A stretch of 64,000 nt of DNA from Colwellia polaris (lineage in GTDB: Bacteria > Pseudomonadota > Gammaproteobacteria > Enterobacterales > Alteromonadaceae). This document shows positions 21,053 through 59,474 of the stretch, in pieces. The stretch covers positions 124,001 to 188,000 of the forward strand of contig NZ_NBOE01000004.1 in the NCBI RefSeq assembly GCF_002104515.1, read 5' to 3'. Under the pieces are notes generated by a model. The model was not told where the DNA came from. It saw only the letters and a list, made by a program, of their open reading frames with translations, and did no database searches. Within the stretch, counting starts at the first letter, position 1, and each line of letters begins with the position of its first letter. A program made the translations under genes and the position numbers.

Positions 21053-21080
21053 TGTGGCTCCGAAGGAATTTTAAAATAGG

Positions 21081-24361: not shown

Positions 24362-24396
24362 TATATTTCCTCATTTAAGCTTATGTAGTTTGGTGT

Positions 24397-26352: not shown

Positions 26353-26354
26353 TA

Positions 26355-36905: not shown

Positions 36906-37043
36906 CTAAAACAATAGATTAAAATTAATTTTATTTAATTGACTTTTCTTAGATGGGTGCCAGTTTTATAGGTCGTAATCTATACCTACGCCGTGCACAG
37001 CGAATTAAACAATAACTTAAATTACTTTAGTAGGAAGAGAATA

Positions 37044-38530: not shown

Positions 38531-41122
38531 ATGGATACGGATTTCAATAAGTTAAAAAAATACTTCGAAGGGATTGCTACAGGGATAAAAATCTCACCTC
38601 CTGCTTTTGACATTTCCCCTTATGCACGTTTAATCAAAGCAATCGAATATGATCCTGATCTAGAAGTACTGACGGTACAAGATCTATTAATTTTGATTAG
38701 GCATGCACTGCTATATTCTTTAGAAAAGGGGATAGACAATCCTAGTTTGACTATTCCTAATATAAAGGGGTGGCCAACCTATAGAGAACTTAAGCAGCAT
38801 AGTTTAGTTATTGTTCGTAGTTATTCATTTGGACTTTTAATAAAAGCTGATAAATGGTTACCTACTTGGTTGAATGATAAAGACATATTTAAAAGGGCAT
38901 TCAAAGAAGATAACTTTAGAGAGTTTAGTGATATTCCAATTGACCCTGTGCTTCAAAAAATAACAGGCTTTTCAACTTTTAGCTCTGAGGGACAAAAAAC
39001 AGTTATTCGCAGAGTTATGAATATGAATTCAGGAGACACTTATTTAATTAACTTACCAACGGGTTCAGGAAAAAGTTTAGCTTTTTTTACTCCTGCTTTG
39101 CTGAATCCGATAGGTAGTCTTGTGGTTGTAGTAATTCCCACCATAGCTCTAGCGCTAGACCAAGAAAGGCAATTTCGGAGAAGTCTTCATAGATTAGAAC
39201 CGCACAATAACTGGAATAGTAAACATTTTGCATGGCATTCAGGATTAATTGATGTAGATAAAGCAGCAATAAGGCAGTCAATAAATGCAGGAACGCAAAA
39301 AATATTATTTTGTTCACCGGAAAGTATTGTTGGAGCATTGCGTGGACAGCTTTTCGAATTAGCAAAAGATGGGCTTTTAAGCCACTTTGTCGTTGACGAA
39401 GTTCATTTACTATCCGGGTGGGGGGATGAGTTTAGGCCTGCATTCCAATCATTAACTTCTGTATGGAAGGGCTTGTTGTCTAACTCTCCAAAAAACTCAC
39501 TGCCTAAAACATTATTATTGTCAGCAACAATAACATCAAATACATGCGATACAATTCAAAGCCTTTTTTCTCATCCTTCTAGCAAATTTGCCATGCTCTC
39601 TTCTGTATTTTTAAGGAAAGAGCCTGATTATTGGTTCCATAAATGTGAAAGTGAAAAACTTAGACTTGAGAGGGTTGTTGAATGTTTAATGCACTCGCCT
39701 AGGCCCGCCATAGTTTATGTAACAAAAGTTGCCGATGCAGAAATCTTATTAGATATCATCAAAAAATCAGGAATATCTCGTGCACAAAAGTTCACTGGTG
39801 CAACAAAAACGGACGAACGTGAATATATCATAAGTAAATGGAACAAAGATGAATTAGATGTAATTGTTGCTACTTCCGCATTTGGAGTGGGTATGGATAA
39901 GGAGAATGTTAGGACTATTATTCATGCTTGTATTCCAGAATCGATAGACCGATTTTATCAAGAAGTTGGTAGAGGTGGTCGTGATGGAAAAGGCTGTACA
40001 TCTCTTGTTTTATTCTGTGAAGACGATTGGAGAGTTGCACAATCTTTAAATAGAACGACTTTAATCTCTATCGAAAAAGGCCATAAAAGGTGGAGTAAAA
40101 TGTGGCACTCATCTCAACCGATTAAAAATATTGCCAACTACAAAAGTAATTTTTATAACGTCGATCTCAGAGTGGTCCCTTCTCATTTAGAAGGAGGGAG
40201 TGATTTATGTGAAGCGTGGAATATGAGGACCCTTTTATTAATGGCAAGGTCAGGTTTAATAAATCTACAGGCACCGAGTCCTCCAGATAAAGCGGATGAA
40301 AATGATATAGATAGCTTAGATATAGAAAATGTTAAAGCATATTATAGCCGCGTAGTTGTTGAAGTTTTGGAAGGTCATTTAGATAAAAATATTTGGCACG
40401 ATAAGCTTGATAGTTACTCCAATAGATCTTTAGAAACTCAAAAGGGTGAATTAAAGCGCCTTCGAAATATCCTAGAGTCTACATCAGAGGTTGGTAAAGA
40501 ATTAGCTTTTACCTATGGATTTAAAGCTCAAAACGGGTTATCTGGCTTTACAGTAGATAGTACTTGTGGTGGATGTCCTATATGCAGATTAAAAGAAAAT
40601 GAGAATAAATTTATTCATTCAAAAGCGCCAAGAACTATAGCTTCTAACTCTATCGTTTTACCCAATTTAGAAAATAACCTTCGTAGCTCAATGGGTATAT
40701 CACATTTTCATAATATTTGGGCTGTCCCGTTTGAAATTAAGGATAAACCTGATGAGTTGTTAGTGTTGCTAATATTAGCTTTAAAGCGCCGAAAGTTAAT
40801 TAACAGAGTTGTTGTTCCAGACCATTGGATTTCCTTTCTTCAAAGCGAGGAAAAATTTGAATTTAGGTACTGCGGTTACCTATCGATAACTAGATTTACA
40901 GATTGGGAAAAAGAACATTGGGATTACCCTAGTGGAGAGGCAATACTTCTGATTCCATCAGATGAAGCTGATTTGCAGAAAGATGTACTTTCAAAGTTTC
41001 CCAAATTACTTTGGATGCTTTTATCCTCAAAAACAAAGCATTTAACTCACCCTGAGAGATTGTTTTTTGATGATTTCGAATTTCAGATAAGCATGAATGC
41101 ATTACAAGCGAGATTAAATTAA
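38531..41122 (+). CDS. dpdF: DpdF-like RecQ-type helicase
   Basis: An 863-residue superfamily-2 helicase. Walker A is LPTGSGKS (175-182), motif II is DEVH (289-292), motif III is LSATI, and the C-terminal RecA domain has ATSAFGVGMDKENVRTIIH and QEVGRGGRDGKG, typical of RecQ. A CGGCPICR Cys cluster sits near residue 680. This is consistent with DpdF, a restriction-side component of the 7-deazaguanine DNA modification system. It is first in the operon dpdF-G-H-I-J-K-D and overlaps dpdG by one base. Its role is presumed to be DNA unwinding at unmodified sites. Confidence 0.85.
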   Translation: MDTDFNKLKKYFEGIATGIKISPPAFDISPYARLIKAIEYDPDLEVLTVQDLLILIRHALLYSLEKGIDNPSLTIPNIKGWPTYRELKQHSLVIVRSYSFGLLIKADKWLPTWLNDKDIFKRAFKEDNFREFSDIPIDPVLQKITGFSTFSSEGQKTVIRRVMNMNSGDTYLINLPTGSGKSLAFFTPALLNPIGSLVVVVIPTIALALDQERQFRRSLHRLEPHNNWNSKHFAWHSGLIDVDKAAIRQSINAGTQKILFCSPESIVGALRGQLFELAKDGLLSHFVVDEVHLLSGWGDEFRPAFQSLTSVWKGLLSNSPKNSLPKTLLLSATITSNTCDTIQSLFSHPSSKFAMLSSVFLRKEPDYWFHKCESEKLRLERVVECLMHSPRPAIVYVTKVADAEILLDIIKKSGISRAQKFTGATKTDEREYIISKWNKDELDVIVATSAFGVGMDKENVRTIIHACIPESIDRFYQEVGRGGRDGKGCTSLVLFCEDDWRVAQSLNRTTLISIEKGHKRWSKMWHSSQPIKNIANYKSNFYNVDLRVVPSHLEGGSDLCEAWNMRTLLLMARSGLINLQAPSPPDKADENDIDSLDIENVKAYYSRVVVEVLEGHLDKNIWHDKLDSYSNRSLETQKGELKRLRNILESTSEVGKELAFTYGFKAQNGLSGFTVDSTCGGCPICRLKENENKFIHSKAPRTIASNSIVLPNLENNLRSSMGISHFHNIWAVPFEIKDKPDELLVLLILALKRRKLINRVVVPDHWISFLQSEEKFEFRYCGYLSITRFTDWEKEHWDYPSGEAILLIPSDEADLQKDVLSKFPKLLWMLLSSKTKHLTHPERLFFDDFEFQISMNALQARLN

Positions 41123-41988
41123 TGTCTATTTTAAATATAACAGCTGATGGGATACCTAATATTTATGAGATGGTTTTTCTGTATTTAGCTAAGCATGGCC
41201 CTATTTCAGAAGAAAAGCTAATGTCAAAATGCGCTCCTTCTACAATTTGTGATTCTAAGATGTTTAATAATGTTTTGAATCGCTGGTCGCAATTCGGAGT
41301 ATTTATAAAAGATGAACAGGAATTGTGGAGTGTTGTTGAATCTGAAACATTATGTCCTAAAAAAAGGGCATTAAATGCAATATTTGATAATTCGAAGTGC
41401 CTTGATGTTTGGTCTTCTGAATATGCATGTGACTTTATTCGGGCATTGATTTGGATACTAGCGCAAGATGTCACTAAACTAAAATTCGATCTGGAAAGTA
41501 TGCAGAATTTAGAAAGTGAACAATTTTCAATGGTAAAAGAAGGTAGTCCAATATACATGCTCCGAAATGATACACGCCTGAACGGATTTAAATTTTGGGC
41601 ATCATTTTTAAATATATTGATTAAGTCAGGTGGAGATCAAGTTGATCCTACAGATTTAATTAGAATGTACTTGAAAGAGATTTTTAGTGGCTCTAAAGAA
41701 TTAAGTGTTGACGCATTTTATGAGCGCTTGATAAACATTTTACCAATTTTTCCAAATGCCTACCTTTATGAACAAGTAACGTCGAAATTAAATGATGGAC
41801 GTTGGCCTGCACCAAGAAAATCTCAAAATGAATTGCCTACATCATTATCTAGAGCAATATTGAGGTTGGAAATTGAAGGAGATATTGTAACAAATGACTT
41901 TAAAGGCGATGGCAATAAAATGAAATTAATGTACGCGAGTGACTTAGCTGGAAAAACTATTTCTCATATCAAGTTAGGGGCTAAATGA
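41122..41988 (+). CDS. dpdG: DpdG-like protein
   Basis: A 288-residue soluble protein assigned as DpdG from its place after dpdF and before the large ATPase. The N-terminal 60 residues look like a winged helix (EMVFLYLAKHGPISEEKLMS). No catalytic motif is visible. Its start overlaps the dpdF stop by one base and its end overlaps dpdH by four, so all three should be made in fixed proportion. Function unknown beyond membership in the restriction side of the Dpd system. The call rests on order, not a motif. Confidence 0.7.
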   Translation: MSILNITADGIPNIYEMVFLYLAKHGPISEEKLMSKCAPSTICDSKMFNNVLNRWSQFGVFIKDEQELWSVVESETLCPKKRALNAIFDNSKCLDVWSSEYACDFIRALIWILAQDVTKLKFDLESMQNLESEQFSMVKEGSPIYMLRNDTRLNGFKFWASFLNILIKSGGDQVDPTDLIRMYLKEIFSGSKELSVDAFYERLINILPIFPNAYLYEQVTSKLNDGRWPAPRKSQNELPTSLSRAILRLEIEGDIVTNDFKGDGNKMKLMYASDLAGKTISHIKLGAK

Positions 41989-44900
41989 TGCTTACTAATT
42001 TATTACCTTATTGGCCTGACTCCTCTCAAGTTAATGAGTGTATTCGAGGAATGGCGGAGAGTGATAACGACATTGTTTTATTGGCAGCGCATAAACAAAT
42101 GTCAATATTAAGAAGCTCGCTTGGTAGAGATACAACAAAACCAAAAAAGTTGAAAGAAACAGATCTTTTAAAGGCATTTCTAGCTGAAACTCAAGATGGA
42201 TTTTTACTTTTACCTATTACAGGTGAGTCTGGGCTAGGAAAGTCTCATATGATTCGCTGGTTAGAATCACATCTTCGATTTCTCCCTGCATGTGATGAAA
42301 AATATCATATTGTTAGAATTCCGAAAGGCGTGAGTATGCGTGAAGTGCTGAGTAGGATCTTAAAGGATATAGATGGGGTAGAATTTGTAAAATTAAGATC
42401 TGAAATTGATAATTTAATGGAAGAGCAAGATGAAGATACTGTTAAACAAATGCTTCGTGCGCATATTTTAACGCAGCTTATTCATTTTAATAAAAATCTA
42501 AAAGATAAAAGAAGCAGGTTGCACCACCTTTCAAATAAAGAACAACTTCAGCTTCAACTCTCATCAGCAGATCTTTTGCAAGCATATTTATCTGATAATG
42601 AACTCTCGGACATTTTTATGAATGATTCTGGATGTATCTCACAGCTAGCAATAAGTCATATGAGAGGGTCAAAATTAGATGAAATAAAAACGCAATTCTC
42701 AATCGAGGATTTGAAAATTGATGACATCGAACGTATTAAGTCATCTTCAAAGAGGACACAATTAGCCTTTGATGAGTTTAATAATAATAATAGATGGGCC
42801 GAAGCGGTAGAGTTGCTAAATTTAGTTATTGATAAGGCACTTAATCCATTAACTAATGTTGGTAATAAGTCAGCAGTAGATTTATTTATAGATATCAGAA
42901 AAGCACTTCTTAACTCAGGAAAGGAGTTAGTTTTACTTATTGAAGATTTCGCTGCGATGGCGGGCATTCAAGAGGTTATATTAGATGTAGCTATTAGGGA
43001 ATCTGACCGTGGAGGTGAGGAAGCTGAGTTGTGTGTAATGCGGACAGCAGTTGCCATGACAAGTAATTATTTAACTAACAGGGATACAATAAATACGCGA
43101 GCACAATATGAGTATATTGTTGATTTTGCTTCAATTAATAAAGACTCTTCAGCATCAGATGCTTTTACAGAATTAAAAGATCAAGTGGTCGACTTTTGTG
43201 GCAGGTACATGAATGCCGCAAGGTATGGAATGGAGCAATTATCATGCAGAAAAGATGAAATTGTTAAAGGTCAATTAGTACCTTTTAATGCACCATCCTT
43301 ATCAACTGAATGTGAAGATATTTTAAATACCTTCGGTAAGACAAGAGATGGATATCACTTATTTCCTTTGAATGAAGCTTCAATTGAAGAGCTTATTAAA
43401 TATTACTTATTCGATGGTAAGTCATACAAATTTAATCCAAGAACTGTGATAAATAAAATATTGAGAGATATTCTTAAAGAGCAAAGAGATAGCTTTTTTG
43501 AAGGTACATTTCCTACATCAGCATTACCAGAGTCACGCTTTCCAGTAGAGATGGATAAAGAAATCTACAATATTTCTAAAGATGATCATAAAAGACTAAG
43601 TTTATTACTTTGGTTTTGGGGGGGAGCACCTCATGACCTATCTGATGTAAATATTTGTAAAGGAGTTTTTGACCATTTAAAGTTACCTTTTGTAGGAGCG
43701 GGATATTCTCCCGAGAAACACCAAGATTCTGTAAGCTATCCTCCTACCCATCCAGAGGAACCTAATCCAACATCCGAGCCTAATCCAGTGCCTGTGGATA
43801 AAAACGTAGAGGCATACTTATTATGGAAAAAAAAGTTAGATGAATGGTTAAAGCCCCGCGGTATTCTAGTTACAGCCCAAGATGCTAATACTATTCGTAA
43901 GTGGATATTAGATAGCTTAAAGGAGCAAATAGACTTTTCTCGTACCTCAACAGTATCACTCAGAGCACTAAAAAGTCAGTCAACTAATTTTATTATACTG
44001 CCAAATGCCAGAGGAAATACTGAAAAAGAATCAGAAAAAATCATCAATATTTTATCAATTGATGAGTTAAATGATGAAAACCCTGAAAAAAGACATAAAT
44101 TTTATGATTTTATAATTGCAAAGGTGAGGTTTGAGTTATTAGGTGCTAAGTCATGGAGCTATGATAAAGGCCATATTGACTACCTTAATTTCACCTCGTT
44201 TGTATTTCAGTTAAAAATACCTTTTATAAATAGCTACCAAGCTTGGTTAAGCGATCAAATTGAAAATGTAGTTAAAGTGTTATTTAAAAATTCTCTGATA
44301 TTAGGTCAAGTAAAGAATAAAAATACTGGTGCATTAATAGATGGGATGATGAATAGTAATAAAATAATAGTATTGGAAGAGCCAAATGAAACACAAAATT
44401 GGCAAACCATTAAGCACTCTAGCCTAAGAAACAGAAGCGAATTACAAAAAGTAGTCATGAAAATATTTGGTCGATATCAAGGCGAATCAGGTGATATTTG
44501 TTATGGCTTGGATACAGATTCGATTATTACTTATCTTGACAGCGATTTTAAAAAAACATTGGAAATGTCAGATATAACTATTTTTGACCATTTAACTCAA
44601 AATACACAGACTTTATATTTAAAAAAATATCAGATAGAAATAAGAGTTAAGCGGGAATTTAATATGGCTCTTAAGCAGAAAGTCACACAATTGAAAGGCA
44701 TTCTAAATGAGTACGAAAAATTAGTTGGTACTCATACTAAACAAGAATTAATTGAGTTAATAAATGGGGTTATAAATAGATTTATCGAAAGTGGTTTGAA
44801 GGTGCAAGGACGTTCAAATGAACAAATTTCTAAAGAGGTGACAACCCTAAATAAACTTTCTATTGGAGAATGTTTAACAAATTTCCAGCCCTTAACAGCA

Positions 44901-45155
44901 GATGAAGATGTTTCTAAATCAGACTTAATAAGAGCAGTGTCTTTAATAAATGCAGATATATTAAACGCGGCTATTTCTTCACTTAATATAATATATAATT
45001 ATTTCATGAGAGTTAGTGAAAGGATGTCTGAGGCAGACTCAGCACAAGATTCTGTTGATAATGTTGAGGAAAATATAAACAAGACAAGAGATGAATTGAT
45101 TAACCATACAAACCTTATAATAAGAAACTCTGAAAAGTTTAAGGTGAAATTTTGA
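41985..45155 (+). CDS. dpdH: DpdH-like large ATPase
   Basis: A 1056-residue P-loop ATPase. Walker A is GESGLGKS (80-87) and a Walker B-like ELVLLIEDF sits near residue 312. The middle has a Pro-rich segment (HPEEPNPTSEPNPVPVDKN near 590), and the C-terminus is a coiled-coil helix bundle. It matches DpdH in size and in operon position. The ATPase may power or gate restriction. Overlaps of four bases with dpdG and one base with dpdI support a single transcript and a protein complex. Confidence 0.8.
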   Translation: MMLTNLLPYWPDSSQVNECIRGMAESDNDIVLLAAHKQMSILRSSLGRDTTKPKKLKETDLLKAFLAETQDGFLLLPITGESGLGKSHMIRWLESHLRFLPACDEKYHIVRIPKGVSMREVLSRILKDIDGVEFVKLRSEIDNLMEEQDEDTVKQMLRAHILTQLIHFNKNLKDKRSRLHHLSNKEQLQLQLSSADLLQAYLSDNELSDIFMNDSGCISQLAISHMRGSKLDEIKTQFSIEDLKIDDIERIKSSSKRTQLAFDEFNNNNRWAEAVELLNLVIDKALNPLTNVGNKSAVDLFIDIRKALLNSGKELVLLIEDFAAMAGIQEVILDVAIRESDRGGEEAELCVMRTAVAMTSNYLTNRDTINTRAQYEYIVDFASINKDSSASDAFTELKDQVVDFCGRYMNAARYGMEQLSCRKDEIVKGQLVPFNAPSLSTECEDILNTFGKTRDGYHLFPLNEASIEELIKYYLFDGKSYKFNPRTVINKILRDILKEQRDSFFEGTFPTSALPESRFPVEMDKEIYNISKDDHKRLSLLLWFWGGAPHDLSDVNICKGVFDHLKLPFVGAGYSPEKHQDSVSYPPTHPEEPNPTSEPNPVPVDKNVEAYLLWKKKLDEWLKPRGILVTAQDANTIRKWILDSLKEQIDFSRTSTVSLRALKSQSTNFIILPNARGNTEKESEKIINILSIDELNDENPEKRHKFYDFIIAKVRFELLGAKSWSYDKGHIDYLNFTSFVFQLKIPFINSYQAWLSDQIENVVKVLFKNSLILGQVKNKNTGALIDGMMNSNKIIVLEEPNETQNWQTIKHSSLRNRSELQKVVMKIFGRYQGESGDICYGLDTDSIITYLDSDFKKTLEMSDITIFDHLTQNTQTLYLKKYQIEIRVKREFNMALKQKVTQLKGILNEYEKLVGTHTKQELIELINGVINRFIESGLKVQGRSNEQISKEVTTLNKLSIGECLTNFQPLTADEDVSKSDLIRAVSLINADILNAAISSLNIIYNYFMRVSERMSEADSAQDSVDNVEENINKTRDELINHTNLIIRNSEKFKVKF

Positions 45156-45871
45156 TGAATTTAGCCAATTTAGCAACAGATTTAACTAGCAGAATTGAAA
45201 AGTACAATATTAATCAAAAGCTAGAACAGAGAGCAGAAGACCTTCAACCTATACAGTTAAGGTGGGATAGCTATAACGAGACTATAAGCATTGATTTACT
45301 AAAGCTCACGGTTCTATGTGACAGAGAAATAGCTTTTATTCCACAAACACTTCTTAATAAAGCACATTCAGTGTCGAAATTATTAGAAGAATCTAAATTA
45401 GTGGAATTAATTGATTTATCTAATGGTAGCAGTTTAAAAAAAATAAATAATGAGCTCCAACAATTGAGTAATAGTTTATCAGATGAGTTACAGAATTATT
45501 GGGGTGAGTTCAAAGAACAAATAATACCTATTTTACCCGATAATATACAAAGAGGCTTGGGGGATAATGACTCCCTTTTACATAGGTTTAAAAGAGCAGA
45601 ATCAGATCTACATAAAGTTAGTCAAAACTTACCAAATGAAGCTGAAAAATTGATAAATGTTATAAATCAAATGCAAGAGATGTCTAGTAATATGATAACA
45701 ATAGTTGGAAAGCTCCAAACTGATTGTCCAGACTACATGAATGCTTTTTTTAATACGGTTGCGAATGGCTTCAAGTTAAACCAACTTACACCAGAAATGT
45801 TGAAATGGTTAATACAGAATGGTGATGCAGAAAGTTTTGAAATCAAGAAAAAACGATATAGCGGGTATTAA
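45155..45871 (+). CDS. dpdI: DpdI-like protein
   Basis: A 238-residue, largely coiled-coil protein (LQQLSNSLSDELQNYWGEFK, then DLHKVSQNLPNEAEKLINVI). Its ATG overlaps the dpdH stop (TGATG), and dpdJ begins four bases after its stop. This length and position fit DpdI, a component without a known enzymatic domain that could tether DpdH and the helicase DpdJ. The assignment rests mainly on gene order. Confidence 0.7.
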   Translation: MNLANLATDLTSRIEKYNINQKLEQRAEDLQPIQLRWDSYNETISIDLLKLTVLCDREIAFIPQTLLNKAHSVSKLLEESKLVELIDLSNGSSLKKINNELQQLSNSLSDELQNYWGEFKEQIIPILPDNIQRGLGDNDSLLHRFKRAESDLHKVSQNLPNEAEKLINVINQMQEMSSNMITIVGKLQTDCPDYMNAFFNTVANGFKLNQLTPEMLKWLIQNGDAESFEIKKKRYSGY

Positions 45872-45875
45872 ATTT

Positions 45876-48800
45876 ATGCTCAATGATAATGTTTTTTTAG
45901 AGAAAGTATTAGATTCACTTGAATCTTTAGAGTATCAACTACTTAGTTGGGGGGTTATAAATAGTTATTTTTCAGAGATAGAAATTTTAAACTTGATAGA
46001 GCAGCAATTGGACAAATTAGACCCTGAAGGTGATTTGCTAACCTTTAACTCTTCAGAGTCAGTTTTGCAAAAGTTATGTAATAAAAATTTAGTTTTTAAG
46101 CTACCTGATCAGAGTGAGTCGAAATATAGAACAAGGATGGCCGAGTCCGTTAGATTATACAAAGAACTTAGGCAAATGTTTCCAAAACATAAAGAAGGTA
46201 ATGAATGGACTTCAGCTTCTACTTTGGTTTCTGATTTAAGGTTTTTGAGAAAAAAGAGGAGTTATCCTTTCAGGGATCAAAAGGCTGAATTTGTTCTTGA
46301 AAACTTATCCGATAAAATGGAAATTTCTGATAATGAGCGTTTAATTTTCTCTGAATTATTGAAATATGCAGGTGGTCTCTACAACCTGTCAGCTTTTCAA
46401 CTTCGGTCTTGTATCAACATACTATCAGAAGCCAAAACACCTAAATCTTCGACTGCCACTATAGTTTGTGCAGGCACTGGTAGTGGGAAAACCTTAGCAT
46501 TTTATCTACCAGTATTAACAAGTCTAGCTGAAAATATTTGTAATAATTATTCTGGGTTTGTACAGGCAGTTGCAATTTATCCCCGTAACGAGTTACTTAA
46601 AGATCAATTTATTGAGACTTGGTTGCAAGCGCGTAAGATCGACAGTTTCTTAAATCAGCAAAATAAACGAAAAATATTGATTGGGGCTTTTTTTGGGCCA
46701 AGTCCCAATGACCATAAAGAAAGTACATTGATTAAAAAGGAATCATGGAAGCGAAAAGGTGATGGTTTTATATGTAGTTATATAAGATGCCCAAAGAGTC
46801 ATGGCAATGTTAGCTGTAAAGGGAACATGGTATGGAAAGATGAAGATAGATTAGGAAATATTGAAAGATTGGTGTGCGATTTTTGCGCCCAATCAATTGA
46901 GCATGATGAAGTAATCCTTACAAGACAGAGAATGCTAAAAGAGAAGCCTGATATCTTATTTTCAACTACAGAAATGTTGAACATGAATATGGGAACAACT
47001 GAAGTTGGAAAGTTATTTGGTATTGGACGATATCAAAAATCACCTTTATTTTTTCTTTTAGATGAAGTTCATACATACAATGGTATCAGTGGCGCTCATG
47101 TTGCGTTATTAATCAGAAGATGGCGTTATTTATCAGGATCAAAATGTCATTTTGTTGGGTTGTCTGCAACCTTAAAACAACCAGCAAAGTTTATGGCTTC
47201 TTTAACAGGTATTGATGAGTACAAAGTTCAAGAAATAGCCCCCTTTGATAGTGAAATGGAAGAAGATAGTGCAGAATATATGCTCGCATTAAGGGGAGAC
47301 CCTGCATCTCAAACCAGTTTGCTTTCTACTACTATTCAAACATCGATGTTGACTAAAAGAATACTAGATAATTCGCTCTTACCTAAAAGTGGAGGGATAT
47401 ATGGCACTAAAAGCTTTGTTTTTACTGATGATGTAGATGTACTACAGAGGCTGTATTATCAACTCTTAGATGCAGAAGGAAGGTATTCTAACGGTAACTT
47501 TAATCCTAGGAAAGAACCACTTGCATCGATAAGGTATCCGGGTGGTTCACTACAACGAATCACTGGCGGTCAAAGTTGGGATATGTCGTTAAAAATAGGT
47601 CATTCACTCGACTCTAATGACCGTTCTGATATTAAGCGAACAGCAGCAATGGATTCAGGCGTTGATCAATCAGCAGATATTATTGTGGCTACGGCATCTT
47701 TAGAGGTTGGTTATAATGACCCTAATGTAGGAGCAGTTGTGCAACACAAAGCGCCTCGAGATAACGCACAGTTTTTACAAAGAAAAGGTCGAGCAGGTCG
47801 AAGTAGAAAAATGCGCCCATGGACCGTAGTTGTATTATCTGATTACGGAAGGGATAGAATGGCTTTTCAAAGTTATGAAACTCTATTTCTACCTGAATTG
47901 AAGGCACGCACCCTCCCTCTAACAAATGGATATGTTCAAAAAATTCAAGCTGCATTTTCCACTATGGATTGGTTATCTCAACAACCAGAAATTTTAAAAG
48001 TGAATATGCCTAAATGGAGTAAAAACAGCCTTTGGGAAGATTTAACAACTCCATTAGGCACTAATAACGCATGCTTATCTAAAAGGCAGAGTGGTTTACT
48101 AGCGAAAATTGAAAGTATTCTATCCTCACCAGATGAAACTAAACAGTTGAAAATACATCTAGAAAATTCTCTAATGATAAGTGAAGTGCAAGTAATGTCA
48201 CTATTATGGGATTCTCCACGAGCGATAATGACAACATTTTTGCCTACGATTAAAAGGCGACTAAAAAGCCTCTGGTGTAGGAATGGGCAAATAAAAAAGG
48301 ATAATATAAAAAAATATCATCCAATGCCAGATTTTGTTCCATCAGCCTTATTTAATGACCTCAGTCTGCCTGAGTTGGAAGTGTGTTTACCAGAGGAGCA
48401 TTTTGACAATAAAATGATGCCAACACTTCAAGGAATGCGGGATTTTGCACCCGGTAGGATTAGTAAACGGTTTGCTTCTGAAAGTATTAAACAGAGACAC
48501 TGGATTGTTCCGGATAGCTTTACTCCAGATGGGGGGTGTTTCAAATTCCCTATTACCGAATATTGTGAAGAAAATAACCTAGAGTTTTTAACCAAATGTA
48601 AAATTGTTAAACATGATGGCCAAATTCAAGAAATATCATGTTATCGACCACACTCTGTATTAGTGAAATCTCCTCTTGAAGAGTGGAATATTAGTGAAAC
48701 TAGTAATGCTTATTTAAACTGGGATACAAATTTAATTACTCCTGATGTAGGGAATGTCGTTGATATTTATCAACATAAACCTTGGGATACTATTTTTGAT

Positions 48801-50971: not shown

Positions 50972-53229
50972 ACCTACCCAAAAAACATGATTTTTTAGAG
51001 ATATTTTTTGGTGTTGGTAATCAATTGAAATGGATTGATATTGTTACTAAAAGGCTTCCTAAATCGTCAACTGATAAATTTATTCCTTGGGTTAATAGTT
51101 ATTTAAATGGCTCTAAACTCATTGTTATTCCTAGAGTATATGAGAGTGGAGATACTTTTTGGTATGCTATGGCTTCTGACTCAAAAAAATTCGTGGAACT
51201 TAGAGAGTTATTAAATGCAGCAGTAGGTTGTTCATACTCTGATTTTAACGGAATACCATACAATCTAGACTTATCCGACCCCATTGAAAATGCAATAGAG
51301 TGTTACTTTGGTAATTCAGTGTTTCGTTTTACAACCAATTCCTTATCATCAAGTTCAACTGACAAAGCCGACATTATAGATGCTTTATTACTAATGAATC
51401 AGCAGTCTTTAATTAAGCCTCAAAGTACGAGTCATTTACAAAGAGACCGAGGGTTGATTTTAGGTGATATAACAAGCGCACTATATTTAAAAGACTCTGT
51501 GAAAGCCCTGAGTTATCTTGGAGAGTTAAGGTCTTCAGGTGGCGTAGGTTATCAAAATGAGTTATTTATTGAAATTCGCGCTTTCGATTGCTCAAATCAA
51601 TGGGATAAAATATTTAAGCATAATGATTTCTCACAACTTGTTGATTTACCTCGACCAGCGTTGGTAACGGAAGCTTTATTAAAGGCTATTTATAATCATC
51701 TTTTTTTGTCCTACGAACTTAATAATGATTTTGAAGGGCAAATAGAATCATTCAAATCATATATTAAAAAGGGAAATCAAGGCTTATTTCGAGTATTAAA
51801 AAGCATTAAATCCGCATCATCTCTCAAAATGTGGTTGCTTTGGTTCTTACTCGAAGATCAAGGTGATTTGAAAAAATCTGAAAAATTGATTCAATCGGTA
51901 AGAGGTTTAAATGATACTGATCATGTCTGGATTCATAGGTTATTAGAAAGGATTAGTCCTAAGAATGTAACAGAAATTCCATTAAACATAATTCAGAATC
52001 AGGAGTTTTTAGAAGAAAGGAGTCTTGTGGTCAGGGCTGAAAATGATCCTTTGCAGTTCTTAAGTAATTTGACTAATGAAAATGTAAGTAAAGAGGTTGC
52101 TTCATTGTCATTAAAATGTGCTTGGTTAGTTGGGACTCTAGACGCAGCAGTTTTATGTGTTGATTTTCTGAACAAACTTGATGAATTTGACTTATCACAT
52201 ATGCTCAAAAACGCTGTGTTTTCGAAGTATTATTCAGAGATAACAAACCTGATTCCTAAAGATGGTATTAATATCTTAAATTGGAATGATTGGATTAAAA
52301 AAATCATTGAAGATATAAATTGGTCCTCATGTATCAATGTTGCCGAGGAGGGTTCGACGACTTGGTCAGCAGCATCATTTGATTTAACCTTATTTCGTAA
52401 CCAAGTTTCTGAAATAATTAATTTAAAGTCAGAGTTAGCATCAAAGAACTTTAGGACTGTTGTACCGTATATATTAAATTGGGTTGATGAAAGTGAAGGT
52501 ATTATTAGTTATAAGGAGTTATGGTCTTCCATTATAGAGTTTTTAGCTCTTGATGATTTAAACTCCAAAGAGGATATTTTTCTTGCACAAGAAATTTTAC
52601 CTAGGTTTTTAAACTGCTCTATTACTTCTATTGAATATAGCGAAGTACTGGAGTGTTTAAATATTTTATTAGAATCTACCGGGGCTGAAAATATTGATCA
52701 GAGGATTGATATTTTAGAGTTGTTAGTAGTTAATAATTGTTATAACCAAGAGAGTAGAAACGCATTATTCAATAAAACATTTAACATATTATGTATAAAC
52801 CCTACTCGATATCAAATTCATGAGTGGAGCTTATTTTTACTAATAGCTGAAGAAGGGCATCTAAAGTTTGATTTGCCTAGTGTTATTACAGAAAATACAC
52901 TGTCAGAACGTGATACATATCATTACACAGTTGACTTAAATACTTATAAGATAGGTATATACACGTTAACTGAATCTGTCGGTCTAAGGGTTAAGAAGCA
53001 ACTCCTGAAATTATTCCCTAAAGTAAATGTGCAACTAAATTCAGATAAGACATCTACTACATCATTAGTCGCTTTAGCAAGAAATGCAGATTTATTTATA
53101 TTTTCTTGGAGAAGTGCTTCCCATTCTGCTTATGATGCTATTAAAGCAGCACGCGGAACTCGCCCTTTAATTCAACCTGAAGGAAAAGGTAGTTCAAGTA
53201 TGCTTAAGGCAATATTGGACTTTGATTGA
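50968..53229 (+). CDS. dpdD: DpdD-like protein
   Basis: A 753-residue soluble protein with no motif that I can name with certainty. Its size and place in the operon match DpdD of the Dpd restriction side. The C-terminal 100 residues (about 640-753) look like a Rossmann-type alpha/beta domain: YKIGIYTLTESVGLRVKKQL, NADLFIFSWRSASHSAYDAI, and a Gly-rich end (PEGKGSSSM). The middle is alpha-helical. It is the last gene of the operon; its stop is 18 bases from the stop of the convergent queC, with no terminator between. Confidence 0.7.
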   Translation: MNLPKKHDFLEIFFGVGNQLKWIDIVTKRLPKSSTDKFIPWVNSYLNGSKLIVIPRVYESGDTFWYAMASDSKKFVELRELLNAAVGCSYSDFNGIPYNLDLSDPIENAIECYFGNSVFRFTTNSLSSSSTDKADIIDALLLMNQQSLIKPQSTSHLQRDRGLILGDITSALYLKDSVKALSYLGELRSSGGVGYQNELFIEIRAFDCSNQWDKIFKHNDFSQLVDLPRPALVTEALLKAIYNHLFLSYELNNDFEGQIESFKSYIKKGNQGLFRVLKSIKSASSLKMWLLWFLLEDQGDLKKSEKLIQSVRGLNDTDHVWIHRLLERISPKNVTEIPLNIIQNQEFLEERSLVVRAENDPLQFLSNLTNENVSKEVASLSLKCAWLVGTLDAAVLCVDFLNKLDEFDLSHMLKNAVFSKYYSEITNLIPKDGINILNWNDWIKKIIEDINWSSCINVAEEGSTTWSAASFDLTLFRNQVSEIINLKSELASKNFRTVVPYILNWVDESEGIISYKELWSSIIEFLALDDLNSKEDIFLAQEILPRFLNCSITSIEYSEVLECLNILLESTGAENIDQRIDILELLVVNNCYNQESRNALFNKTFNILCINPTRYQIHEWSLFLLIAEEGHLKFDLPSVITENTLSERDTYHYTVDLNTYKIGIYTLTESVGLRVKKQLLKLFPKVNVQLNSDKTSTTSLVALARNADLFIFSWRSASHSAYDAIKAARGTRPLIQPEGKGSSSMLKAILDFD

Positions 53230-53247
53230 TACCTATTGGGTAGAGTG

Positions 53248-53898
53248 CTAAGTAATAGGGTCCTTGAGATTATTCTTCTCAAAAGCTTCTAATCTTTCAC
53301 CACATGAACCACATGTTCCACAGGCTTTTTCTTGTCCTTTGTAACATGTCCATGTTTTTGAATAATCTAGATCCATTTGAATGCCATCCTTGAGAATTCC
53401 TATTTTATCAGTTTCTAAATAGGGAGCATGTACATGAACAGGTTCAAAGTTTGCAACTTTAGAAGCTTGATCCATTACCTTTACAAACTCAGGTCGACAA
53501 TCTGGGTAAATCATATGATCCCCAGAGTGAGCACCATACCAGACACCCTCCGCTTCAATATCTACAGCGTAGCCAATCGCTAATGATATTAAAATCATGT
53601 TACGGTTGGGTACAACAGTAGATTTCATATTTTCCGCCTCATAATGGCCGTCAGGAACGTCTATATCATCTGAAACAAGTGACGAACTTGTAAAAAGACT
53701 TGATATAGTTTTTATATCTAAAATTTTATGTGGAATACTAAGCTCATTACATACTTCTTTTGCGCATATTAGCTCTTTATTGTGCTTCTGGCCGTAGTCA
53801 AAAGATAAGGCATATACATCAAAGCCTTCTTTTATTGCTTTGTTTAAAACAGTAAAAGAGTCCATACCACCTGAATATATGACAACAATTTTTTTCAT
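53248..53898 (-). CDS. queC: 7-cyano-7-deazaguanine (preQ0) synthase QueC
   Basis: A 216-residue enzyme that turns 7-carboxy-7-deazaguanine into preQ0 using ATP and ammonia. The PP-loop is SGGMDS (9-14), and the zinc site is C185, C193, C196 and C199 ([10 protein letters not shown]). [16 protein letters not shown] and [14 protein letters not shown] are the family signatures. It is the last gene of the modification operon queD-dpdC-dpdA-dpdB-queC and begins four bases after dpdB ends. preQ0 is the base that DpdA inserts into DNA. Confidence 0.95.
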
Positions 53899-53902
53899 GT
53901 GT

Positions 53903-55024
53903 TTAGCCCCAAACTTCTACTCTATATTTACGCATTAGGTAATTAGTCAGCTTTTGAATGTCTCTAGCGATATTTTGTAGTTCATTCCACTTCACTTTAT
54001 CTTCTGAGCCGAAATCCCAAAAGCCATTTGTCCAATGGCAAAATGGTTTCATAGCTTCTAAATCTGCTTTAAATTGCTCATAAGTAACAATTTTATCCCG
54101 ATCACTTGTATGATATCTATCAAAAATTGCATCCATCAAGTGGCCAAGTGCTGTCATGCCAGCCCCATGCATTAACCGAGAGTCTTTAGGCTTTTTTCCC
54201 CAAGCTTCTGGAAATACGTCTCTTACAGCACCCCAGTAATTTGATAAAACCTCTACCATTTTTTTATCATCACCTTTACCCGTAGAAGGATCTCTATAGT
54301 TATACAAGGCTCCCTCTGAGAGACTAGCTTCAATTAGCTTTAAGATCGAGTTATCTTTTACAACTCCAGCAGGGTTCGTTGCAGTTTGAATTATTTGATA
54401 AAAAGGAGAAGACTTTTGATGGTTTAAATCATCAAGTAACTTGGCAGGGAACCTTCTTTTTTGTAGCCCCGAAGAAAGTTTAGTCTCTGTATAGGGTAAT
54501 AACTCATAAATTAATCCTTTTGGTAAAGGCTTAGTTGAGTTAACCAATATAAATTGTTCTCGCTGTTCTTGGGCATCATCTGTTATGAAAGCACTTACCG
54601 GCATTTGGAATGTATCAATGTCTGCTGCTCTTAAAGCAGCAGCTCTTTGCTGACCATCTACAATTAGTCCGGGCTTTTCATCTTCATTTTCGACTAAAGG
54701 GATCTTTAATGTTCCAAATTTAGTACTATCTTTAGATGTTAAAAAATTAGTATTATCTTTAGATGTTAAAAACTTAACATCTGTACTAAAAGCGATCACT
54801 AAAGCATTTGGGATCATCGGATTTTCTGACTCTAAATAGCGTTGAATATCTCCAATGTGATTTGACACTTCGGGTCTTTGATATCCAACTAATTCATCTT
54901 CATGACGCTTTACCCGAGAAATAGAAGCGATCGACTGTATTTGTTTGCCGTTAATAGCAAAGCTAAAAAGTGCTCTTCCGGGGCCTTGTTCTATTTTAAT
55001 TGCGGGTACTTCTATATATTTCAT
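53903..55024 (-). CDS. dpdB: DpdB-like DGQHR-domain protein
   Basis: A 373-residue protein of the ParB/DndB-like DGQHR group. The core motif is DGQQR at residues 123-127 ([14 protein letters not shown]), with [16 protein letters not shown] following. DpdB acts with DpdA to insert preQ0 into DNA and is reported to hydrolyse ATP. A tandem in-frame repeat ([18 protein letters not shown], residues about 85-102) looks like a recent 27-bp duplication in a loop. It starts eight bases after the dpdA stop on the same operon. Confidence 0.88.
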
Positions 55025-55032
55025 TTTGAGTC

Positions 55033-56262
55033 CTACTGAATTTTCTTTAATTCTTCTTGGAGTTTTTCATAAGCAATGTAGAGGTTATGAAATCCTCTTC
55101 TTCGATTTCTAGCTGCTGCTCTTTTTAATACAACATGAATCCCTATATCTTGACAAATATCACATGGACACTTTTTCCAAGGCTTATCTGTTAAAACTTT
55201 ATCCATCAATTCGATTCTGGAAGCTTTGGGGTTGTAGATTTTTTCATATTTGACTAAAGAGTTTAAAACTATGTCTTTTGATGTCGTTCCTTTATCAAAT
55301 GCTATTACGGCATCTAGACATTCTCTTTCAAGGTCAAATGCCTGATTTTGATTAATAGCTCCAGTTTGTACTAATTTTCGCATATTATTATTGGCATCAA
55401 CCTGAGGCAAACCTATTGATGTATAGTCTTCACCATGTGTGTGGTAGTTAAATTTGTCATCTTTTAAGCCTTTCATAAGAGGAGATGTACTATCAAATGA
55501 TGTGACGCCAAAATTTGAAAATTCAGTTATATGGTTTAACCTGTTTATGCCTAAAAGGTGAAACTGAGTATCGTTGTTCCTAATTTCATTCACGTGTTTA
55601 AGAACTGATAATATTTCAGGGCTTTTTAAGGGGATCATGCCTCCTAATGCGATAGTGCGATATCCCATTTTTTGTAACGCTTTTACTGATTCTGCATAAG
55701 ACTCTGGACTCCACCCATGTGCAACACCATATGGAGTGAAATGAAGTCCTTTATTGGATTTTAAGAATTCCTCTGCTAGTGTAAGAGTAATATCTTGCCT
55801 TCTTTTGCATTCAATTAATTGCTCACCCGTTATTTTTCTTTTTGGTGTTTCAAAATCAAATATAATATGATCCAGTGATATGCCATGGGTAAAACCAGAA
55901 TTTGAATAAAACTCATTAACTTCATCTATTGTATATAGTGGTTCATACTCTTTAGCGTAGCTAAAAGCACCACAGTCACCCATAGTTTGATAGAACTTAG
56001 GCAACCTAAAAAATTTGTATATTCCTTCACGGAAAAAACGTTGTCTTTGGGCGACAGAATACCTGCCTTTCACACCATTTAAGCCATCAACTACTGCTTT
56101 AGAGACGAGAATACCATCGTAAACTGGTTTACTAAAAAGCTCATGTGCGTATTTGTCATCTCGTTGAATAACACGATGTTCGTTGTGTGTCTCTTTCTCA
56201 AAGTCGAAAGTAGGATCTACAAAGTCGTGGCTATCAGGGAAATAAAATTTTACTTTTGACAA
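55033..56262 (-). CDS. dpdA: DpdA, DNA guanine transglycosylase
   Basis: A 409-residue TGT-related enzyme that exchanges guanine in DNA for preQ0. The likely catalytic acids are D96 (MGDCGAFSY) and D257 (SFDSTSP). The zinc-binding group CPCDIC holds C365, C367 and C370, with H392 downstream. HFTPYGVAHGWSPE and ALGGMIPLKSPE complete the barrel pattern. This is the defining gene of the Dpd system, present without phage genes. It lies between dpdC and dpdB with spacings of one and eight bases. Confidence 0.93.
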   Translation of the reverse strand: MSKVKFYFPDSHDFVDPTFDFEKETHNEHRVIQRDDKYAHELFSKPVYDGILVSKAVVDGLNGVKGRYSVAQRQRFFREGIYKFFRLPKFYQTMGDCGAFSYAKEYEPLYTIDEVNEFYSNSGFTHGISLDHIIFDFETPKRKITGEQLIECKRRQDITLTLAEEFLKSNKGLHFTPYGVAHGWSPESYAESVKALQKMGYRTIALGGMIPLKSPEILSVLKHVNEIRNNDTQFHLLGINRLNHITEFSNFGVTSFDSTSPLMKGLKDDKFNYHTHGEDYTSIGLPQVDANNNMRKLVQTGAINQNQAFDLERECLDAVIAFDKGTTSKDIVLNSLVKYEKIYNPKASRIELMDKVLTDKPWKKCPCDICQDIGIHVVLKRAAARNRRRGFHNLYIAYEKLQEELKKIQ

Positions 56263-56263
56263 A

Positions 56264-57226
56264 CTAAATACTACCTATAAATTTTTGATCAAACTTTGCT
56301 TCAATAAATTCTTTATATAACTTACCAAATCGCTTTTGTTCACACGCCATCCCCTTACTTCTTAAAGCTCTCAATAGCTTAGAAGCGGATGACTTATTGA
56401 TCCCCGAACTTTCTAATTCTTCTGTAATGAAATGAAAAACGTCTTCATCCGTCATTTTTTTTCTATTGAACTTCTCAGCGGGGGGGGAATTTTTGAGTAA
56501 TTCATTGTACAAATTTTCCACCTGAGGGGCTACTGCTCTTTCAAGGGTTAATCTTTTCATAATGTAGTTAGCTAATCTGATATTTAGGGATATTCTACTT
56601 CCCCCTAAGTGCTTACAGAAATTGTCTTTTGCTTGAAAATAGAAATTTTTTAATGATGGATTTAAGTTTTGTTTACTAGAAAATATAAATGTATTTTCTT
56701 TATGTACAATTCCACTAGAGACCAGTTTTTGTAATTCAGGCTCTAAAACCTTTAAATAATTAGGAGGAACAACTATGAAAAATAAATCAGAAGTATGCTT
56801 TTTATAAAGACCTTCTATTGGACCATATTCCTGACAACCATTTGTTTCCTTTATATTGATCTCATTCCACCAACTAATATTTTTTTCTGCTAGGTTCTCA
56901 CCAGAAAAAAATTTTGAAACAGAATTTTCATTGTTACCGTTAAAGGTTGCATTGTAAGAGGAGATTTCCTTCTTAGCAGATATTAAGCCATATCCAGCAG
57001 ACACAACCCAGACAGGGAAAGCTAAATTATATATCTCATTCACTTTAGACCAATGATCACCAACATAAACATCTATAGCAGCAACTAAGTCTTTTTGGCT
57101 TTGTAATTTATAAAACCAGCTTTTAGTGGGCGAACAAGACTCTTCATTGATGTCTTTAATTTTAACATCATGTTTTAATTTATTGGATTTACTGCTGGTG
57201 CAATTAGTAATCAAATGGATTTTCAA
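56264..57226 (-). CDS. dpdC: DpdC-like preQ0-in-DNA hydrolase
   Basis: A 320-residue protein assigned as DpdC from its place between queD and dpdA and from its N-terminus. This has a DUF6884-like start (IHLITNCTSSKSNKLKHD) and VVSAGYGLISAKKE. In the Salmonella system DpdC turns preQ0 in DNA into 7-amido-7-deazaguanine. The C-terminal part (about 225-320) is basic and helical, with a winged-helix look (SSASKLLRALRSKGMACEQK). It follows queD after three bases. No residues of the nitrile hydrolase reaction are known to me. Confidence 0.8.
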   Translation of the reverse strand: MKIHLITNCTSSKSNKLKHDVKIKDINEESCSPTKSWFYKLQSQKDLVAAIDVYVGDHWSKVNEIYNLAFPVWVVSAGYGLISAKKEISSYNATFNGNNENSVSKFFSGENLAEKNISWWNEINIKETNGCQEYGPIEGLYKKHTSDLFFIVVPPNYLKVLEPELQKLVSSGIVHKENTFIFSSKQNLNPSLKNFYFQAKDNFCKHLGGSRISLNIRLANYIMKRLTLERAVAPQVENLYNELLKNSPPAEKFNRKKMTDEDVFHFITEELESSGINKSSASKLLRALRSKGMACEQKRFGKLYKEFIEAKFDQKFIGSI

Positions 57227-57229
57227 AAG

Positions 57230-57592
57230 TTAATTGCCTTTATAAACTACGCCACATGTACAAGTTTCCATCAATTCAATTGCAGAGAGTTCTGATAATG
57301 ATGGTTTTAACTCTTCCCAAATCCATTTTGAGATTACTTCGGCAGTCGGGTTTTCTAGCCCTTTGATATCGTTAAGGTAGTTATGATCTAACTGGTCATA
57401 AATGGGTTTAAAAATTGACTTTACGTCAGAAAAATCTATAAACCAGCCTGTATCTTTATTTACAATTCCCTCTAAATGAATTCTAACCTTATAAGAGTGA
57501 CCATGGAGTCTCCCACACTTATGTCCAGCAGGAACGTTGGGTAATTTATGTGCTGCTTCAAACATGAAGTCTTTGTAAATAGCTGTCTTCAT
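57230..57592 (-). CDS. queD: 6-carboxytetrahydropterin synthase QueD
   Basis: A 120-residue enzyme that makes 6-carboxy-5,6,7,8-tetrahydropterin from dihydroneopterin triphosphate, the second step of preQ0 synthesis. The zinc ligands are H15 (EAAHKL), H30 and H32 (LHGHSY). The catalytic C26 (HKCGRLHGH) and the H70 of QLDHNYLND are present, and the CTCG stretch is near the end. It is first in the minus-strand modification operon, and its promoter is shared with the divergent plus-strand genes. Confidence 0.95.
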   Translation of the reverse strand: MKTAIYKDFMFEAAHKLPNVPAGHKCGRLHGHSYKVRIHLEGIVNKDTGWFIDFSDVKSIFKPIYDQLDHNYLNDIKGLENPTAEVISKWIWEELKPSLSELSAIELMETCTCGVVYKGN

Positions 57593-57613
57593 AGAACTTT
57601 CGATATTTTCTCA

Positions 57614-57629
57614 CTGTTAATATAGACAG
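57614..57629. promoter_or_regulatory. LexA-box-like site in the divergent queD promoter
   Basis: CTGTTAATATAGACAG has the CTGT-N8-ACAG layout and an A/T-rich centre, within the 135-bp spacer between queD (minus) and the 63-residue gene (plus). It is as good as the lexA boxes at 60294-60330. By composition about one such match is expected by chance per window, so the evidence is positional only. Confidence 0.5.
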
Positions 57630-57727
57630 CATTGTACACTAGATTTTTGGCGTCAGCCACTACTATCGATTGTTTAATCTTTGGAGGTTGATATAGTTAA
57701 CAGGTCACAAAATCGATTGGTGAAAAT

Positions 57728-57919
57728 ATGGAATTTGAACATAAAAAAGTACTCGCTAAAATTATCTTAACTTTGCAAAGTGATCATCATGGTTGTAAAG
57801 AAGAAGCTATCAATATTGCAAAAGAAGCGCTTGGAATCGAAATTGAGCATAACTCAATACGTGAAATGATAAATATAGTAACTGAAGAGCAAGTTGGAAA
57901 TTTTCTAGATTTGATATAA
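57728..57919 (+). CDS. Small hypothetical protein (63 aa)
   Basis: A short acidic helical protein (EFEHKKVLAKIILTLQSDHH, then NSIREMINIVTEEQ) that I do not recognise. A GGTGA lies a few bases upstream of the ATG. It is the first gene on the plus strand of the divergent pair and is followed 14 bases after its stop by the zinc-ribbon gene and then folE. It might be a regulator or a small partner of the modification genes. Confidence 0.5.
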   Translation: MEFEHKKVLAKIILTLQSDHHGCKEEAINIAKEALGIEIEHNSIREMINIVTEEQVGNFLDLI

Positions 57920-57933
57920 AGGATTTGTAAAAC

Positions 57934-58929
57934 ATGGAAGTACTTGAAATTGATATACCGTTTGAATATCGCTTTAAATGTTGGTTTTGTGGGGAGGACT
58001 CACATACTTATATAGAAGTGAATCATTCTGAAATCAATGGAGGACTCAGTCTGATTTCTATACCAACTTGTGATGAATGCCAATCATACGGGTGTCACCT
58101 ATCGGTTATTACTTTAGATGAACTTAGGCCACTTATTAAAGATAAAATTATTATTCGAAGTAGTAAAGAATTATCAATAGGAGCAAATTGGACAGAAAAA
58201 GAATTGACGGAATCTGATTTTACTGGCAATGCCTTTGAAGGGTTTAAGAGAAGTGGTTGGGAAATGTTTCTTATTGCTAAAGAAAGAGTTAATTTCAAAG
58301 CATGGGATTTATGTATTGACGGTATACCGATTTCTGAAGTTGTAAATGAAGAAATCTTTGAATTCGATGGGCTTACATTTTCCAACTTTAATAGTATGTT
58401 AGATTATTTAAGCAAAACATTTTTTTTAGATAAACCTTTTTTAAAACGAGTGCTGACTTTATATGGTAATGATAGAACAATTGAAGCTGTCAAATTTTGT
58501 AGATTAGTACCGCATGAAACTGAAACAGAACGTGAAATAGCATTTGAAGACCTTGTCGAGTCTTTCCGAGAAAAGGATGCCCTCGCCTTAAACAATAAGA
58601 TACTTGATAAATTAGTACTATACGTAGATATTGATTCTATAGTGCCTGTTCAACTTAAAAATAATACTATACCTGCTCTATCTATCCAATGGGCAATGCA
58701 AAACGGCGTTATTAATTTTGAAACACTGGATAGATTAGAAGATAATTTTTTTGATACATTTTCATCCGAAGGCGATGAAAAAGCTTTTCAGTTATTTAAT
58801 GCTTTAGAAATATATTTAGATAAACGCTTATCTTCTCTATCATGGCGAAAAAATCAAGATCCCAACTTTGCTCTTTGGGAGTATGTTGAATCTCAATGTA
58901 AATTAATTAGAACTAGAGGTAATAAGTGA
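57934..58929 (+). CDS. Zinc-ribbon protein between queD and folE
   Basis: A 331-residue soluble protein. The N-terminal 55 residues form a likely zinc ribbon (CWFCGED, then CDECQSYGC). The remainder is alpha/beta and helical without a recognised domain, though [20 protein letters not shown] and the C-terminal EYVESQC stand out. AGGAT precedes the ATG. It overlaps the folE start by four bases, so the two are co-translated. Placement in the preQ0 supply operon suggests a partner role in the Dpd system, inferred only from linkage. Confidence 0.55.
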
Positions 58930-59474
58930 GTATAGAAAAAAACTATCGAGCGATCCTTGAAGAAATTGGCGAGGATGTTAATAGAGGTGGTCTCATAGAT
59001 ACACCTAAGCGTGCAGCAAAGGCTATGGAGTTTTTAACTCAAGGGTATAACCAAAATATTGATGATGTCGTAAACGGCGCTTTGTTTGATTCTGATGCCG
59101 ACGAAATGGTTGTGGTAAAAAATATAGAATTATATTCAATGTGTGAACATCACATGCTCCCTTTCATTGGGAAGTGTCATATTGCCTATATTCCAAGTGG
59201 TAAAGTTTTAGGATTATCAAAATTTGCTCGAATTGTTGATATGTATGCGAGACGACTGCAAATTCAAGAGAATTTGGCTAGAGAGATTGCTCAAACTATA
59301 CAAGATATAACAGGATCTATTGGTGTTGGTGTAATAATTGAGGCACAACATCTATGCATGATGATGCGTGGAGTGGAAAAGCAGAACTCCTCTATGACAA
59401 CATCAGTAATGCTGGGTCAAATGAGAGAGAATGCTTCTGCGAGACAAGAAATGTTATCACTGGTCAAATCCTGA
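58926..59474 (+). CDS. folE: GTP cyclohydrolase I FolE
   Basis: A 182-residue type I enzyme that opens GTP to dihydroneopterin triphosphate, the first step toward preQ0 and folate. The zinc ligands are C73, H76 and C144 ([22 protein letters not shown]). The signature [22 protein letters not shown] is intact (core [12 protein letters not shown]). The GTG start overlaps the preceding stop. As a dedicated copy in the dpd cluster it probably supplies QueD. A housekeeping folE is expected elsewhere. Confidence 0.95.

Follow-up and report, generated by a model that had tools for sequence, protein, structure and literature searches.

What remains of a DNA-marking defence system when one of its helicase genes is gone? 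In Dpd systems, an altered guanine tags the cell's own DNA, and untagged DNA becomes the target for destruction. We analysed a stretch of 64,000 nucleotides from Colwellia polaris (contig NZ_NBOE01000004.1, positions 124,001 to 188,000; hereafter the window), in which a first-pass annotation, made from the letters alone, had described an altered Dpd system. By its sequence, the region 38531-59474 is a real Dpd cluster for 7-deazaguanine DNA modification and restriction, in which one helicase gene of the restriction half, dpdE, has apparently been lost by deletion, with a scar at its former place, while the rest of the island is intact. We give a probability of about 65% to the reading as a whole, namely a Dpd island with dpdE deleted, in which modification would be active and restriction weakened or lost.

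A Dpd island without DpdE

The profile search that the first-pass annotation had named bears out its gene list and strands: dpdF-G-H-I-J-K-D on the plus strand face queC-dpdB-dpdA-dpdC-queD on the minus strand, with folE beyond. The identities of F, G, H, J, K, D, A and B are confirmed by NCBIfam models and that of C by a PADLOC model, and I is matched weakly. The genes are assigned as follows.

38531-41122, plus strand: dpdF, RecQ-like helicase (NF041063, 836 bits; cut-off 550)
41122-41988, plus strand: dpdG (NF041064, 158 bits; cut-off 80)
41985-45155, plus strand: dpdH (NF041065, 616 bits; cut-off 450)
45152-45871, plus strand: dpdI-like (NF041066, full-length match, 52 bits, under the cut-off of 150)
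45819-50444, plus strand: dpdJ, YprA-type helicase (NF041067, 1703 bits; cut-off 800)
50441-50971, plus strand: dpdK, PLD-type nuclease (NF041068, 215 bits; cut-off 100)
50968-53229, plus strand: dpdD (NF041061, 625 bits; cut-off 300)
53248-53898, minus strand: queC (TIGR00364, 204 bits)
53903-55024, minus strand: dpdB (NF041060, 505 bits; cut-off 300)
55033-56262, minus strand: dpdA, DNA-guanine transglycosylase (NF041059, 564 bits; cut-off 200; structure 7ui4)
56264-57226, minus strand: dpdC (best PADLOC model DpdC, 275 bits; no NCBIfam match)
57230-57592, minus strand: queD (TIGR03367, 111 bits)
58926-59474, plus strand: folE (TIGR00063, 245 bits)

The two helicases and the PLD nuclease recognised earlier correspond to the RecQ-like DpdF, the YprA-type DpdJ and the PLD-type DpdK, all with profiles over cut-off. 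DpdK carries an HxK motif, and DpdJ Walker A and DEVH motifs. The Cys cluster of DpdA and the DGQQR motif of DpdB, both also pointed out before, are present; the former, CxCxxC...H, is invariant across four aligned DpdA proteins, and DpdB contains a DndB-like domain. Residues 1-405 of DpdA match structure 7ui4, a DNA-guanine transglycosylase (E 6e-140), which is the DpdA of S. Montevideo (PMC12137116). The cluster of that organism restricts an unmodified plasmid more than 1,000-fold (PMC5567051), and the helicase DpdJ belongs to the YprA family, which is also represented in DISARM and Druantia (PMC12458937). No relatives of DpdJ in viral contigs, or of DpdD in phages, were found. In a Paenibacillus DpdA (L047:19161-21230), an N-terminal extension matches the DpdC of the window at 26% by tblastn, an apparent DpdC-DpdA fusion.

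Is dpdE absent from the cell as well as from the island? When we searched the complete assembly (4.43 Mb in 28 contigs, rated 100% complete) with the DpdE profile (cut-off 500 bits), no DpdE was found, and the full eleven-gene form of Dpd is accordingly not present here. The best match to the DpdE model in the genome, C1, consists of two stretches of 163 and 100 bits, and the protein is actually RapA, scoring 1402 bits as RapA against 261 as DpdE. Two other SNF2 frames, C12 (seen in part) and C23, score higher against other families. Using eight DpdE proteins as tblastn queries, we detected no dpdE pseudogene body in the full window (best E 0.65), and there is no ATPase gene in its place upstream of dpdF. 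The claim that an SNF2-type DpdE is missing thus stands for window and genome alike, the search for a homologue elsewhere in the genome having yielded none. A gene at 36993-37841 encodes a UDG-fold-like protein (Pfam UDG, E 0.002, under cut-off) with relatives on 35 plasmids; we rejected it as a stand-in for DpdE, as it has no tblastn match in the compared dpd loci.

The scar upstream of dpdF

How was dpdE lost? In four relatives from the same family (G852, G802, G883 and G754), an island queE, 68-73% identical to the chromosomal QueE, lies directly before dpdE, in the order queE-dpdE-dpdF. Two traces of this arrangement are discerned in the window.

38282-38456, plus strand: relict queE-dpdE spacer (restriction-operon leader), now preceding dpdF
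38506-38530, plus strand: probable remnant of the 5′ end of dpdE, directly adjoining the start of dpdF

The first is identified as a relict spacer by its alignment with the queE-dpdE spacers of G883 (70% over 179 nt) and G852 (66% over 180 nt), and the alignment with G883 begins at the final queE codons and the stop. The second matches the dpdE start of G1003 at 17 of 20 nucleotides in a near-colinear position, and when the 80-bp stretch was shuffled 2000 times and compared with five dpdE starts, a 17/20 match never arose. It is probably the 5′ tip of dpdE, and the gene was probably deleted: a near-complete deletion of dpdE would have fused the operon leader to dpdF, and queE would have been lost separately, to the left; tblastn across the window detects no queE body (best E 1.7). 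Judged by these traces, the locus is a Dpd variant that is new by the loss of one gene, and the scar accounts for the loss. The earlier expectation that such a reduced set would reveal the essential parts does not follow, because the scar indicates loss from a complete system and not a proven minimal set. A word common to both operon leaders, AATATAG-N5/6-TTGTACAA (15/15 at 38336 and 14/15 at 57619), was picked post hoc and is weaker in the relatives, and we do not claim it.

Rarity of DpdE loss

We looked at DpdE and DpdJ side by side in 82 further dpd genomes: 50, then G323 and 26 more, and five from the window's family (five of seven, since G854 and G1003, Alishewanella and Rheinheimera genomes, had already been counted); 3 of 80 dpd loci were left outside this comparison. 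DpdJ is over cut-off in 62 of the 82 genomes, and among these DpdE is over cut-off in 59. Two more have long DpdE matches slightly under the cut-off of 500 (G389, 448 bits; G439, 445 bits), and in the remaining genome, G323, dpdE is split by an insert of about 2.5 kb that carries an IstB-like gene and an integrase-core gene. Total absence of DpdE was found in none of the 62 other genomes with canonical DpdJ. Likewise, DpdD occurs in 8 of the 395 genomes of the family search, the window's included (7 over cut-off), and DpdE is over cut-off in all seven other DpdD-bearing genomes. Across these sets, the loss of DpdE in the presence of canonical DpdJ is unusual.

The IS21-like insertion in G323 (L135:4675-7035) is itself a second natural disruption of dpdE. 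Among 5,426 E. coli genomes, two dpdJ types are present in 47 and 58, and the matching dpdE types in 47 (46 of them with at least 80% of the query covered) and 58, these being totals that are not paired per genome. The dpdA-B pair of the type found on plasmid pPOL9A and in E. coli GE3 occurs in 159 of the 5,426 complete E. coli genomes, and the two types of restriction block are matched in 47 and 58 of them. According to the GATOR-GC preprint, islands come in 146 gene compositions, and apart from dpdD and dpdI most dpd genes occur in more than 70% of islands (PMC11888242); Dpd islands without some genes are therefore already known.

Predicted activity of the island

preQ0 supply: QueE had also been reported as missing. 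It is indeed absent from the window, and a housekeeping QueE of the E. coli type is encoded elsewhere in the genome, at C9 (TIGR04322, 357 bits), divergent from the housekeeping queC. Since the genome encodes this enzyme, the route FolE-QueD-QueE-QueC is complete in the cell, and the island FolE, QueD and QueC with the chromosomal QueE would make preQ0. The expectation of an island queE is also weakened, as none is listed in two enterobacterial islands, GE3 and pPOL9A (the plasmid gene table is incomplete, and neither is from Salmonella). In GE3, the annotation of the 20 kb flanking the match on each side lists queD, and no queE, queC or folE.

DNA marking: DpdA with DpdB would swap guanine in DNA for preQ0, and DpdC would convert the DNA preQ0 to the amide form. 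As the preQ0 route is complete and the A, B and C genes are open, modification is probably active.

Restriction: DpdF-G-H-I-J-K-D would constitute the restriction half. DpdE is reportedly needed for restriction in S. Montevideo, and for this reason restriction is probably impaired in C. polaris.

What speaks against a dpdE deletion with impaired restriction? Over about 12.9 kb, all seven restriction genes that are left have open frames and show none of the decay that a system long out of use would display. The probable tip of dpdE spans just 20-25 nt, and blastn ignoring position gives it an E value of 0.28. Furthermore, five genomes (G425, G427, G429, G432 and G443) have a longer J-like protein (291-299 bits) and no DpdE at the cluster, nor any DpdE match at E 1e-40 or better, save a 197-bit match on another contig of G429; DpdE is hence not universal in Dpd. 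The last of these points suits the main rival, according to which restriction works without DpdE, either because its ATP-driven role is dispensable or because RapA or another helicase takes over. The full-length, open state of all the other restriction genes, and the leader before dpdF, related to that of complete islands, fit this idea too. However, none of the 62 other genomes with canonical DpdJ lacks DpdE altogether, no ATPase gene replaces dpdE upstream of dpdF, and RapA seems no special substitute, since RapA-like matches under the cut-off also occur in seven relatives that have DpdE. We regard working restriction as unlikely, yet serious enough to be kept in view. Variants in which the J-like protein has about 2,100 aa and the cluster yielded no DpdE comprise L048:32166-38474 and the five genomes above; the longer protein also occurs in G380 and G386, each with a DpdE-like match (423 and 342 bits, respectively) on the same contig.

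The origin of the gap could also be different. The restriction block may have lacked dpdE when it arrived, through recombination in the conserved spacer, and the gene would then not have been lost in this lineage. Restriction blocks of relatives do exchange between the spacer and queC, but a donor origin merely shifts the deletion to the donor, and dpdE is present in the closest restriction block that we found, that of G852 (J 51%), so that we consider this route rather improbable. That dpdE is present in the cell and was lost in assembly is conceivable for a draft of 28 contigs; the site, however, is internal to a contig of 291 kb, the relatives are colinear across the junction, and no DpdE piece was found anywhere in the genome, which makes such an error very improbable. 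Deletion of dpdE with impaired restriction is the explanation that we retain.

Exchange of restriction and modification blocks

How does the island compare with known ones? The GE3 island of E. coli, located next to a tRNA-Leu gene, and that of the Enterobacter plasmid pPOL9A share dpdC-A-B and dpdF-G-H-I-J-K-D with the window, and pPOL9A has the same convergent order. Unlike the window, both have dpdE, and queC, folE and two companion genes described below (a 63-aa gene and P0001) are not listed in the stretch examined; in GE3, queD stands at the far end and there is no exact LexA-type box. The seven family islands (G852, G883, G754, G802, G783, Rheinheimera and Alishewanella) resemble the window more widely, with convergent operons that meet at queC and are followed by queD and the 63-aa gene, but dpdE is over cut-off in all seven and queE precedes dpdE in four. 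In Dnd/phosphorothioate systems, the modification module is reported to be commonly decoupled from the restriction module (PMC10853773). This is an analogy, since Dnd differs in chemistry and enzymes and has no kinship with Dpd apart from the DndB-like domain of DpdB.

Identities within the family vary block by block. Between the window and G852, queC, queD and folE are 87-90% identical, whereas A and B reach 41% and 30%, and J and K 50-51%; between the window and G783, A and B are 81% and 76% identical, and J and K 38% and 32%. G852 and G883 share queE and the spacer (85% of nucleotides over 946 bp) and the region from queC to the GNAT gene (90% over 6,972 bp), whereas dpdE-dpdD align in patches alone, at 59-69%. 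At the protein level, their DpdA and DpdB are 98% identical and their restriction proteins 26-39% (DpdI was not found in G883). Not every pair is mixed, as G883 and G754 share both blocks. These block-wise identities mean that restriction blocks are replaced while the modification block stays the same, and that B-A-C change between queC and queD. Judging from them, the restriction (E-D) and modification (B-A-C) blocks are exchanged independently between conserved preQ0 genes. A swap of the restriction block is likewise evident in enterobacteria: for C, A and B, identity between pPOL9A and GE3 is 98-99%, and for E-D it is 22-51%. The pattern suggests that restriction is independent of a target sequence co-adapted with the modification enzymes. 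We found no report of independent block exchange in the literature searched, which is weak evidence of novelty, as the main Dpd papers (Thiaville 2016, Yuan 2018, Gedara 2023, de Crecy-Lagard 2024) were beyond reach.

A LexA-type box next to the modification operon

How might the modification operon be controlled? The spacer between queD and the 63-aa gene at 57728 holds one conspicuous element.

57614-57629, no strand assigned: exact LexA-type box, CTGT-N8-ACAG

The box overlaps a TATATT hexamer oriented towards queD. The window has three exact sites, this one and two before lexA (60294 and 60315). First-order simulations gave a mean of 0.57 sites per 64 kb and a maximum of 3 in 60 runs, so the count says little and the argument rests on location. 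An exact box lies in the same spacer in G852, G883, G754 and G783, that is, in five of eight clusters with the window, and none does in G802, G854 or G1003. Elsewhere in the examined stretches, there are two further exact sites in G852 and one in G754; 23 other dpd loci contain 7 in 492 kb (not placed relative to genes), and E. coli GE3 has none. From the position of the box, we infer that the modification operon may be under LexA control. By analogy with restriction alleviation (PMC11109961, PMC4231737), marking would rise when repair yields unmarked DNA. A literature search for a link of this kind led to work on another restriction-modification system.

Companion genes and surroundings

Two genes before folE, at 57728 and 57934, had been taken for insertions. 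They are better described as companions, the former occurring in all seven related clusters and the latter, whole or partial, in four.

57728-57919, plus strand: 63-aa companion gene, in 7/7 other family clusters
57934-58929, plus strand: P0001, companion gene for a 331-aa CxxC protein, 74% identical in G883 and G754, no family match
59513-59929, plus strand: GNAT acetyltransferase, also after folE in G852 and G883

The 63-aa gene adjoins queD in all seven, and its HGCK core is invariant. P0001 has relatives 74% identical over the whole gene in G883 and G754, one in two frames in G852, and a distant one (~30%) after folE in G802; tblastn found none in the examined stretches of G854, G1003 and G783. 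The family is not Dpd-only, since 54 of 196 other genomes from the order encode relatives and C. polaris itself has a paralogue. Neither protein matches Pfam or PADLOC, and P0001 has no worthwhile sequence match in the PDB. The predicted models have mean pLDDT (predicted local distance difference test) values of 81 for P0001 and 84 for the 63-aa protein, and a fold search of the PDB gave no match for either (best E 2.7 and 3.8, respectively).

The flanks of the island lie 179 bp apart in G787 and 169 bp apart in G822, so about 39 kb (21.1-60.27 kb) was inserted before lexA, in one step or several; four of six genus relatives show other arrangements. The left end contains a Tn7-like set of TnsA, TnsB, TnsC and TniQ (21679-27203, minus strand).

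21679-23403, minus strand: tniQ (Pfam TniQ over cut-off)
23393-24361, minus strand: tnsC (Pfam TniB over cut-off)
24397-26352, minus strand: tnsB (integrase-core matches under Pfam cut-offs, and position)
26355-27203, minus strand: tnsA (Pfam TnsA_N over cut-off)

A search for matching ends and a 5-bp target duplication revealed no convincing Tn7 termini, and a single transposon carrying the whole island is hence not shown. Beside tnsA, 27428-28067 holds an array of five to six copies of a ~118-nt repeat with a hairpin-like core ending in GAGTACA, which has no Rfam match; Rfam searches of 20.9-61.5 kb gave none at all. Just right of the left flank gene, 21079-21332 resembles, by eye, a short miniature inverted-repeat transposable element with inverted ends (GGTAACCTGAACTCTGGATAA type).

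Implications for Dpd biology

How might these features fit together? We tentatively propose, at less than even odds, that Dpd consists of two freely exchangeable blocks in a frame of preQ0 genes, with the mark sensed without a shared target sequence, modification controlled by LexA in this family, and the window as a natural uncoupling of the two halves. Under this proposal, one restriction machine would serve unrelated modification machines by sensing the mark or its absence, repair-made DNA would be marked before restriction acts, and marking would outlive the loss of dpdE.

According to a 2025 review, Dpd restriction activity "has not been further explored" (PMC12707154). How the restriction half works and distinguishes marked from unmarked DNA is little explored. 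The LexA-type box, if functional, would link a DNA-marking defence system to DNA damage. Finally, a probable natural deletion of dpdE beside intact partner genes, together with the natural pairing of near-identical modification genes with two very different restriction blocks, makes both the working of restriction and the sensing of the mark directly testable.

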